Source of the DNA: Pyrinomonadaceae bacterium
Lineage (GTDB): Bacteria; Acidobacteriota; Blastocatellia; Pyrinomonadales; Pyrinomonadaceae
DNA length: 64,000 nt
Assembly: GCA_021228405.1 (NCBI GenBank)
Contig: JAJQRF010000004.1
Coordinates: forward strand, 372,001-436,000
Reading direction: 5' to 3'
Shown: positions 1-61,135 of the stretch, piece by piece
How the letters are laid out: each line of letters starts with the position of its first letter
Position numbering within the stretch: the first letter of the stretch is position 1
Notes under the pieces: generated by a model
Databases searched by the model: none
Told to the model about the DNA's origin: nothing
The model's input: only the letters and a program-made list of their open reading frames with translations
Program-made: the position numbers and the translations under genes

Positions 1-14
1 TCACGCTGCGGAAA

Positions 15-195
15 GCAACTTTCATCCGATATGACCAACTTTCATCTGATATGAGCATCTTTCACAATGCTAAGAGCAACTTTCACGTGATATGAGCATC
101 TTTCATCTGATATAAGCATCTTTCAGAATAAAGTCTGTTCCGTCACGTGATATTTGCATCTGTCAAATGATTTCACCGTCTGTCAATTGACAGAT
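15..195. repeat. Array of about nine degenerate 20-bp direct repeats
   Basis: Units start at 15, 35, 55, 76, 96, 116, 136, 156 and 176, so the period is 20 bp with one 21-bp step. The best units read GCAACTTTCAYSTGATATGA or GCATCTTTCATCTGATATAA; units at 116-155 and the last two are eroded. There are no unique spacers, so it is not CRISPR. The array may continue left of the window. It ends in a perfect 14-bp palindrome (180-193, CTGTCAATTGACAG). The unit clearly resembles the 21-bp repeats at 60950-61117, on the same strand. The near-helical period suggests cooperative protein binding, which is inference. Confidence 0.85.
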
Positions 196-59388: not shown

Positions 59389-59988
59389 ATGAGTGATTTT
59401 ACAGGATTCGTTTTGGTTGGCGGAAAGTCTTCGCGGATGGGCGAGGATAAGTTTGCTTTGCAGTTCAGGGGCAAAAGTTTTCTCGAAAACGCGGTTGCGG
59501 CGTTAAGTGAAGTTTGCGAAACCCGCGTTAAATTGGTTTTGAATCAATCTCAAACCATCGAAACCGAATTGCCGTTCGTGCGTGATATTTACGAAAAACG
59601 CGGCGCGCTCGGGGCGATTCACGCGGCTTTGCAAAATTGCGAAACGAAATTTGCCGTCGTTTTGGCGGTCGATCTGCCTTTGGTCGATGCAAACGTCATC
59701 GAAAAACTCGCCGGATTTGCGCTCTCTTCAAACAAATTTCTCGCCAGCGTGCCGCGCCAGACCGACGGCAGAATCCAGCCGCTATGCGCCGTTTACCGCG
59801 CGAAATATTGTCTGCCGACACTCGAAAGATTGATGGAAGAAAACGCAACCGCTTCCCCGCGCGATTTTCTCGAACTGGTAAACACGCGCTACATCCCGCA
59901 ACAAAATCTCTCCGCCGACACTGAACAAGACATCTTTTTCAACGTCAACACTCCGACAGAATATGAACGGATAGTTGATAACAGATAG
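59389..59988 (+). CDS. mobA: Molybdenum cofactor guanylyltransferase (MobA)
   Basis: 199 residues. Adds GMP to molybdopterin to make the MGD cofactor that bis-MGD enzymes such as the upstream YdeP-like protein need. The nucleotide loop 'FVLVGGKSSRMGEDKFALQF' and the metal-binding 'AVDLPLVDANVIEKL' match MobA. The last codons ('ERIVDNR') overlap a 14-bp tandem repeat (GATAGTTGATAACA) that continues into the intergenic region, so the C-terminus may have been trimmed or extended by repeat activity. Start ATG follows the palindrome by 9 bp. Confidence 0.92.
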   Translation: MSDFTGFVLVGGKSSRMGEDKFALQFRGKSFLENAVAALSEVCETRVKLVLNQSQTIETELPFVRDIYEKRGALGAIHAALQNCETKFAVVLAVDLPLVDANVIEKLAGFALSSNKFLASVPRQTDGRIQPLCAVYRAKYCLPTLERLMEENATASPRDFLELVNTRYIPQQNLSADTEQDIFFNVNTPTEYERIVDNR

Positions 59989-60066
59989 TTGATAACGTAT
60001 AACTGATAACGAAAAGCAATCCACTATCCACTATCCACTATCCGCTATCCGTTCCCCGTTATCCAC
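59970..60066. repeat. Short-word repeat region, GATAGTTGATAAC / CCACTATCCACTATC
   Basis: Two copies of GATAGTTGATAAC (59970-59982 and 59984-59996) are followed by a related GATAAC word and then, from about 60020, a tandem CCACTAT (7 bp, three copies) and CCGCTATCC. The two halves are complementary in style (GATAGTGG/CCACTATC) and can form a hairpin. The words reappear near 61339-61361. Confidence 0.75.
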
Positions 60067-60428
60067 TCGATCGCGGCTTTTTCTTCGGTGAAGATTTTCA
60101 GTTTAGCGGAGATTTTGTCCGACGATAATAATTCAAACTGACGACCGCGCCCGAAATCGGTCAATGATTTCATCAAAATCGCGGCTCTGCCGTCGCCGAT
60201 CAATTTGTCGTATCTTTTATGATTTGCCGTTGCCTGCCGCATCAGTTCGATGTCGGTTTTGCCGAACTGCATATTTCTGTGATCGAAAAAAACATCCGTT
60301 CCCGGTTTCCAAAATTCACGCGTGACGATGTCCTCGATCATTCGCACGTGGTCTTCGACATTAAAAGTTCCGGCGGTTTTGATGCTGACAAAATGCTTAT
60401 CTTCCCTATATTCTGCTGTCCAATTCAT
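60045..60428 (-). CDS. SpoIIAA/STAS-like protein
   Basis: 127 residues with the pattern of the PF11964-type STAS/SpoIIAA-like family: 'FVSIKTAGTFNVEDHVRMIED', in parts, 'GTDVFFDHRNMQF', 'KLKIFTEEKAAIEWI' at the end. The family is thought to bind small lipophilic or nucleotide ligands and has a CRAL-TRIO-like fold. It has no obvious partner and is not co-directional with mobA. A second, unrelated STAS protein is at 1384-1668. Confidence 0.7.
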   Translation of the reverse strand: MNWTAEYREDKHFVSIKTAGTFNVEDHVRMIEDIVTREFWKPGTDVFFDHRNMQFGKTDIELMRQATANHKRYDKLIGDGRAAILMKSLTDFGRGRQFELLSSDKISAKLKIFTEEKAAIEWITGNG

Positions 60429-60518: not shown

Positions 60519-60869
60519 TCACTCATTTTTGAGTTGCGCGATAAATTCTTCCACTTTGTCGAGCTTATCGAGCGGAATTTCCTTATACAGCCGCACGAAA
60601 TCAGCCGCGCTTTTTTCACGAATCAGCGTATTGAGCGGATGATTTGCGCCGAGCATTTCATTTTCCTTCGGCTGCCACTCGAAAAGATCGTTCGGCGTGC
60701 AATTGAGCACCCGGCAAAGCCTTTCGATGTGCGAAATCTTGATGTTGACAATCTTATGATTGACCAGTTTACTCGCAACCGTGCGGTAAAAGCCCCTGTC
60801 AACCAGATAACTGAACGGTTTATCCACACCGCGCATCTCCAAAATTCGCCTCAAATTAAAATTCAACAT
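60519..60869 (-). CDS. XRE-type helix-turn-helix regulator
   Basis: 116 residues. Residues about 3-65 form a Cro/C1-like DNA-binding domain with 'NFNLRRILEMRGVDKPFSYL', 'YRTVASKLVNHKIVNIKISH' and 'IERLCRVLNCTPNDLFEW' (the last is typical of XRE repressors). The second half is a short acidic helical tail. The upstream side of its start codon, 60870-60949, leads into eight 21-bp direct repeats. The protein may bind those repeats and control itself; this is inference. Confidence 0.85.
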   Translation of the reverse strand: MLNFNLRRILEMRGVDKPFSYLVDRGFYRTVASKLVNHKIVNIKISHIERLCRVLNCTPNDLFEWQPKENEMLGANHPLNTLIREKSAADFVRLYKEIPLDKLDKVEEFIAQLKNE

Positions 60870-60949
60870 AAAATCAGTCCTCTTCGAGTGAAATTTTACA
60901 GCCGATAAAGTTAAATGACAATATTTTTATAATAAAAGGTCTGATATAG

Positions 60950-61135
60950 GCGATTGTTTAAGTGATAAATGCGATTGTTATGATGATAACTGCGACTGAC
61001 ACAATGATATGTGCGTTTGTCACAATAATATTTACGATTGTTCAGATGATAACTGCGACTTTCAGGATGATATTTGCAACTTTCAGGATGATAACGGCGA
61101 CTTTCAGGATGATAACGGCGACTGACGGCTATTTA
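60950..61135. repeat. Eight 21-bp direct repeats upstream of the XRE gene
   Basis: Units start at 60950, 60971, 60992, 61013, 61034, 61055, 61076 and 61097, an exact 21-bp period, with a partial unit before (60929-60949) and after (61118-61135). The last complete units read GCGACTTTCAGGATGATAAC plus one base; the early ones are more degenerate (GCGATTGTTATGATGATAAC). Period equals two helical turns, so bound proteins would line up on one face of the DNA. It lacks spacers of unique sequence, so it is not CRISPR. The pattern TTTCA-n-n-n-TGATAT is shared with the array at 15-195. An 80-codon frame across it (from 60962) is only a read-through of the repeat. Confidence 0.92.

Follow-up and report, generated by a model that had tools for sequence, protein, structure and literature searches.

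The iterons of plasmid Rep systems are head-to-tail repeats about two helical turns long. The arrays that we describe here differ from them in that no initiator gene was seen and in that one genome carries many arrays, most with a unit of their own. Two other precedents involve small DNA-binding proteins acting on direct repeats. The C protein of phage P2 is described as a small dimeric helix-turn-helix repressor that binds cooperatively to direct repeats, with no palindrome, placed 22 bp apart from centre to centre (PMC4752584). Its O1 and O2 operator comprises two 8-bp sites and serves a phage switch, whereas our arrays have 6 to 26 chromosomal units at 21 bp; the spacings agree (21 against 22 bp). 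BldC, a MerR-like protein, is described as forming a head-to-tail oligomer on direct DNA repeats, at sites of variable length (PMC5859096), but it belongs to a different fold family from the regulator studied here. Finally, in the account given of Xre-RES modules an XRE protein controls its own promoter and may have a second site (PMC12204516). The site is palindromic there and the partner is a RES toxin, whereas we saw no RES gene adjoining our XRE gene, and the 127-aa open reading frame downstream had no RES match in Pfam at E values up to 10; a toxin-antitoxin pair of this kind was therefore discarded. Among the best-ranked literature matches (the best 20 of 1,199 on one topic) we met no description of such arrays or of their pairing with a regulator.

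The window, i.e. the whole stretch of 64,000 nucleotides that was analysed, holds an array of nine 21-bp direct repeats (60942..61130, minus strand; gene-strand consensus TcntgAcAgTCGCantTATCA). Every step is exactly 21 bp, and the ATG of a 116-aa Cro/C1-type regulator lies 72 bp beyond the end of the array. The first-pass annotation had placed eight near-exact units at 60950-61135. The exact step stands and the extent does not, and near-exactness holds for the distal part only: three units of the TCCTGAAAGTCGCCGTTATCA type (61047..61109, minus strand) share 81-95% mutual identity, while the proximal units are degenerate and the mean pairwise identity of the nine is 0.66 (range 0.43-0.95). Tandem Repeats Finder returned two overlapping period-21 rows that jointly span 60942-61123, and in an 84-bp stretch of the array the identity at lag 21 reached 0.762; the maximum over 2000 first-order shuffles was 0.500. 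The units abut at 21-bp steps without spacers, as had been noticed before, which rules out a CRISPR array. A putative sigma-70-like promoter (TTGTCA-17-TAAAAT, 10/12; 60893..60921, minus strand) stands between the array and the start codon, 5' of the regulator. It is only suggestive, because six such sites occur in the region, where shuffles have 2.0 on average; three of the six are inside the array, and such promoters are not consistent across the paralogues.

The regulator (60519..60869, minus strand), the presumed cognate protein of the array, matches the Pfam family HTH_26 (PF13443) with 41.1 bits for a cut-off of 22 (E=2.2e-10). Its AlphaFold2 model (pLDDT 86.4) has helices at residues 18-24 and 29-36. 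The recognition helix (H3) and the following loop, residues 27-44, are encoded at 60738..60791 (minus strand), and it is the sequence of this part that tracks the array unit across relatives. Foldseek gave the Cro/C1 proteins Stl, CylR2 and SinR as the best matches of the model (E 0.005-0.04), and a PDB profile search at 0.01 found two matches only, both of them Stl chains. In these proteins (Stl being that of SaPI2), which are among the closest solved folds, the helix-turn-helix part alone matches, and we know of no 21-bp array associated with any of them. On the same strand, 90 bp downstream of the regulator, lies a gene of 127 aa (60045..60428, minus strand) with a very weak SpoIIAA/STAS-like match (E=0.028). 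Inspection by eye of the loci of relatives revealed neither this gene beside the regulator nor other conserved neighbours, apart from the B-like genes discussed below. The neighbours of the window array with Pfam matches are this weak STAS-like gene and MobA-like, 6PGD and PALP enzymes. PADLOC models at 0.01 matched neither the regulator nor the family-B protein nor the downstream gene, on which result a known anti-phage defence system was rejected.

The source genome (G000; 5.72 Mb), which belongs to the same taxonomic family as G013, encodes eight full-length members of this regulator family, the window protein sharing 38-47% identity with the other seven. All eight are preceded by a 20-21-bp array of 9-18 units. 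The steps are all 21 bp in six of these arrays, 21 bp with a single 20 in a seventh (L005), and all 20 bp in the eighth (L008); Tandem Repeats Finder reports periods of 20-21 or multiples of these. The units are all different, as illustrated by TTTGCGTGgnATtg (L006), ATTTCAGTCTG (L007) and CAGTCCAgAtGaAAA (L008).

We used an array test that is passed when the score exceeds 1.5 times the best of five shuffles and at least five units are found, in the 600 bp upstream of regulator-family and distant-relative loci and in the 500 bp upstream of control genes and most family-B loci. A scan with the profile of the paralogues through one genome per species (84,980 species) yielded 80 loci (of 103 encoding a relative), from which 52 formed the family set and 26 a control of distant relatives, with L084 and L089 left out. 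To these 52 we added the eight paralogues, ten loci of the own taxonomic family, ten of Flavobacterium and 18 of Bacteroidia. The resulting 98 loci became 91 after removal of five duplicates (L165, L166, L167, L169 and L222; the G013 locus L169, for example, agrees with L052 in its array and in the start of its protein) and two fragments (L048 and L073). L048, truncated and hence uncounted, was the sole Sericytochromatia locus. The 91 still include near-identical orthologues from different genomes, and many come from metagenome-assembled genomes.

Whether XRE homologues and such arrays go together in relatives had been proposed as a check, and the association is strong: beyond the eight paralogues of eight, 76 of the 91 unique regulator loci, spread over Acidobacteriota and Bacteroidota, pass the array test and 15 fail it. 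Selection by protein profile alone gives the same picture, since all 18 Bacteroidia loci chosen in this way pass (at least two near-identical pairs are among them, L282/L283 and L290/L294; the 19th match of that search lies in the genome of L025, which was already known, and was excluded). Distant helix-turn-helix relatives, mostly from Oscillospiraceae and similar groups and matching only part of the protein, never pass (0/26), and the seven of them that were scanned all have HTH_26. Control genes of G000 pass in 6 of 120 cases, two of the six sharing one array; they were taken from 325 longest-ORF calls in 400 kb. An earlier scan with another score had found the best upstream lag to be 21 or 42, with p<=0.01, in 36 of 52 family loci and in none of eight distant relatives. 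The 76 passing arrays have 6-26 units (median 11), and 795 of their 830 steps are 21 bp, as counted by a detector that was built on a 21-bp unit and penalises other steps. Their distance to the start codon has a median of 34 bp, and a quarter of them end at most 10 bp from it. The window gene is a member of a regulator subfamily linked to 20-21-bp arrays. This family is patchy: full-length matches occur in 8 of 99 genomes of the own taxonomic family, in 8 of 150 genomes of the genus Flavobacterium (E<=1e-15) and in 9 of 247 of the Bacteroidia set (E<=1e-20).

How the unit changes among these loci is informative on the protein that might read it. Nine pairs of near-identical orthologues from different genomes (identity of the helix-turn-helix at least 0.89) have a unit similarity of 0.86-0.95. 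A unit similarity above 0.6 is found in 17 of the 18 pairs whose helix identity is 0.9 or more, in 10 of 12 pairs between 0.8 and 0.9, where some values go down to 0.35, and in about a third of those between 0.6 and 0.8. The partial correlation with unit similarity is highest for the helix and loop (residues 27-44), at 0.257, a value reached in none of 500 permutations; it is 0.125 for the C-terminus (also 0/500), 0.065-0.082 for the other protein parts, and 0.091 for the helix in the reverse-complement control. When C-terminal identity is at least 0.7, unit similarity rises with helix identity at a Spearman correlation of 0.88 (37 pairs, not independent of one another). Conversely, unit similarity is 0.48 or less in all seven pairs that are alike in the C-terminus (identity above 0.6) and unlike in the helix (below 0.5). 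Judging from these comparisons, the array unit tends to change along with the recognition helix, more than with the rest of the protein. Three flavobacterial pairs break the pattern, their units being different (similarity 0.24-0.46) at a helix identity of 0.72. Some correlation with unit similarity is also seen for every protein region, and the covariation is partly phylogenetic because unit and protein are linked loci with shared descent.

In view of the precedents of the P2 C repressor and of BldC, we read the array as a multi-site operator with helical phasing that serves its own regulator, with pairs of regulator and array diverging into private specificities. We regard this as probable, if some way from certain. 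Each 21-bp unit would hold one asymmetric site, and a step of two helical turns would place all sites on one face of the helix, where several molecules of this small Cro/C1-type protein could line up cooperatively beside their own promoter. The outcome would most likely be concentration-dependent autoregulation, with repression likelier than activation, the sign being a guess. Since each paralogue has a private unit and a private recognition helix, several mutually insulated regulator-array pairs might coexist in one genome. The first-pass annotation had put forward, among other roles, that the regulator binds the array as its own multi-site operator, and this idea gains in plausibility from the association and from the way the unit follows the helix. 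If the pairing holds, each locus displays the DNA sequence preferred by its regulator many times over, right beside the gene. Genome sequences could then reveal the protein-to-DNA recognition code of a Cro/C1 subfamily, which might serve to build insulated regulators.

The unit of the window also recurs elsewhere in G000. Its pattern, with three mismatches allowed, is found in 17 places, against one for the reversed control: seven in its own array, two in the array of a family-B gene at C19:371.9 kb, three at C2:321310-321458, two at C17:29138-29204, one at C18:93144 and two on C10:149995-150083. The matches on C2 and C17 are spaced by 41 or 82 bp, distances that arrays with 20/21-bp steps would give. 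The unit similarity between the window array and the family-B array, 0.67, ranks seventh of 1275 array pairs (99th percentile 0.58), and one of the pairs ranked above it is a single array entered twice. A small trans regulon is possible, in which the arrays with related units would be further targets: the one at the family-B gene that lies to the left of the window, and probably those on contigs C2 and C17. A point against the operator reading is that, among the 14 best-matching pairs of distinct arrays in about 22% of the genome, the window array is the sole paralogue array.

This second array (C19:371921-372185, minus strand), a 20/21-bp array unmentioned in the first-pass annotation of the regulator's array, extends into the window, where its right part covers positions 1..185, and its unit is related to that of the first. 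It lies upstream of a 223-aa gene just left of the window (C19:371202-371870, minus strand) that we assign to a family B. The protein has nothing above cut-off in Pfam or NCBIfam and nothing in PHROGs or PADLOC. Its structure is confidently predicted (pLDDT 90.8) as long helices packed in a bundle, for which the search for solved relatives gave a best Foldseek E of 0.17, no PDB profile match at 0.1 and a best VIA Z of 8.9, within the chance range for helical bundles. Family B is present in 29 of the 99 genomes of its own taxonomic family. Arrays precede 10 of its 11 paralogues in G000 (a twelfth, weak match was left out) and, elsewhere in the taxonomic family, 16 of the 17 loci that could be tested (18 were given, one being too short); ten partial or weaker matches (L194-L203) were left out of this test. 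B-like proteins of Bacteroidota were first spotted by eye beside the regulators L071 and L075, and a profile comparison indicates full-length homology with family B (probability 98.6, E 1.3e-15). Bacteroidota matches have an array in 12 of 17 cases. Among the other five, L206 encodes an intact full-length protein of 311 aa, L205 fails narrowly (1.49 times the null) and shares an array with L075, and L207, L212 and L219 have stops inside the match. Regulator and B gene can also diverge across one common array, as in G000 (L007/L109) and in the flavobacterial loci L071 and L075, where the B-like gene encodes 311 aa. Flavobacterium aquatile LMG 4008 has three regulators, and one of them has its array in common with a family-B gene.

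Another family, C, has about 120 aa and is represented in G000 by five genes, at C7:127949, C7:200892, C19:107646, C19:254775 and C19:462725. The four members that were aligned share a C-terminal GDxxxGxDSxLY motif. All five have an upstream array; the first four were found through their adjoining arrays and the fifth passes independently. No further family-C gene was found in 1.256 Mb of G000, and in the phylum sample one genome of 99 has the family. When profiles of B were compared with the regulator and with C, no similarity emerged.

Arrays are in fact frequent in this genome. In 1.256 Mb of G000 repeat clusters number 9 at lag 20, 30 at lag 21 and 6 at lag 40, with at most four at any other lag from 12 to 39. 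This sample contains 38 arrays, about 30 per Mb, of which nine lie beside regulator, B or C genes and 29 beside none of the three. These 29 neighbourless arrays are found between convergent genes more often than other gaps of at least 200 bp (11/29 vs 49/266, Fisher p=0.026), the orientations being taken from crude ORF calls, by which the window array, excluded from the orphans, is called convergent through an antisense ORF. By extrapolation from the sample some genomes may carry about 170 such arrays, and one may ask why there are so many. Hence the earlier description of one array paired with one regulator was incomplete: arrays also precede genes of families B and C, and many have no such gene beside them.

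Densities elsewhere were compared over eight genomes that differ in G+C, with one to three small samples each. They reach 4.0 arrays per 100 kb in G438 (five regulators), where at least one of eight arrays looks coding, and 1.0 in G056 (two regulators, eleven B matches), where the single array is inside an open frame. For G013 (one regulator, two B) the value is 0, for G075 (nine B matches) 0.5, and for three genomes lacking a full-length regulator or B it is 0, 0.5 and 0. The single array of G029 is also inside an open frame.

One might speculate from these results that the arrays, helically phased repeats of 20-21 bp, form a general kind of chromosomal address that has so far gone unrecognised. 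Each would have a unit private to the protein encoded beside it, and three families with no sequence similarity found between them would use such addresses: the HTH_26 regulator and the helical B in Acidobacteriota and Bacteroidota, and the small C in G000. Orthogonal pairs would duplicate, shift specificity and seed arrays of the same unit elsewhere. This wider reading is tentative, and we find it clearly less probable than that of an operator serving its own regulator. If it were true, B and C would be new sequence-specific DNA-binding or array-bound proteins, and, should the pairing hold, the arrays would be a first handle on these two families, one spread over two phyla and the other rarer. 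In four genomes that lack a full-length regulator (G012, G075, G018 and G034) B genes have arrays; B arrays thus need no such regulator, and another factor must use them. Either further proteins share this architecture or one common factor does.

The latter thought leads to an explanation that we consider rather unlikely, namely that what binds the arrays is a shared factor, or several families, such as a nucleoid, tethering or insulating protein, and that the regulator is one kind of neighbour among several. The same geometry upstream of B and C genes would fit, B being dissimilar to the regulator, and so would the 29 arrays without any of these neighbours, with their 11 cases of convergent placement. 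Yet units within one genome differ at nearly every position, which would be hard for one reader, and the unit follows the recognition helix of the regulator. Moreover, dense arrays are found in the two many-regulator genomes only (3.0 and 4.0 per 100 kb, against 0 to 1.0 in the six others, G+C being different).

Could the arrays instead be neutral minisatellites, produced by a tandem duplication biased to 20-21 bp in tolerated intergenic space and uninformative on the neighbouring gene? Many arrays do have private units, and the greater likeness of distal units suggests recent duplication. Conservation within the unit is only modestly more uneven than in simulated neutral duplication: the variance of column conservation is in excess with p<0.05 in 15 of 58 arrays under recent duplication and in 24 of 58 under star-like duplication. 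But random placement would hardly produce arrays at all eight paralogues, at all 18 loci chosen by protein and at none of the 26 distant relatives. The concentration of the lag spectrum of G000 at 20 and 21 and the retention of the unit by near-identical orthologues across genomes (the nine pairs above) also speak against it, and we deem this explanation improbable.

Head-to-tail repeats of about 21 bp resemble iterons and some partition sites, and an array for replication or partition had accordingly been entertained for the window. We find this role very improbable, and it drew no support from the genomic context: the sampled contigs carry some 30 arrays per Mb, the genes of the window neighbourhood that Pfam recognises are metabolic, and no initiator or partition gene (ParA/ParM-type) was seen among the six window proteins scanned with Pfam. 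A plasmid iteron/Rep system was rejected as no initiator gene lies beside the window array. A tblastn search of 72,556 plasmid and 50,697 phage records at 1e-5 found nothing matching the window regulator, on which ground a plasmid or phage origin was rejected too. Equally doubtful is an array that is transcribed and acts as RNA or encodes a heptad-repeat peptide, for while 21 is a multiple of 3, an 80-codon frame traverses the window array and a quarter of passing arrays end close to the start codon, the Rfam scan of the window had no match, hence no known RNA, and the 20-bp steps of L008 and mixed 20/21 steps elsewhere break the frame, which rejects a coding repeat and agrees with the first impression that the array has no coding logic.

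Some details of the units and of their surroundings are worth recording. The regulator family may have a palindromic operator: self-palindromicity of its arrays averages 0.39, against 0.28 between arrays, this between-array value being the only reference. Three other arrays of G000, at C19:32390, C4:53697 and C4:135562, have 21-bp units that are palindromic by eye, as dimer operators would be, and most regulator-linked arrays are unlike them. Two more, at C19:308751 and C4:188123, share one near-palindromic unit, GCAaAAAnCaTTTCTGC, in unrelated contexts with no flank similarity and with no regulator, B or C gene beside them. Finally, intergenic heptanucleotide repeats of the TATCCAC and GATAACG types recur near several regulator/array loci, among them the window (59966-60050), L010 (1430-1495) and L006 (393-472).
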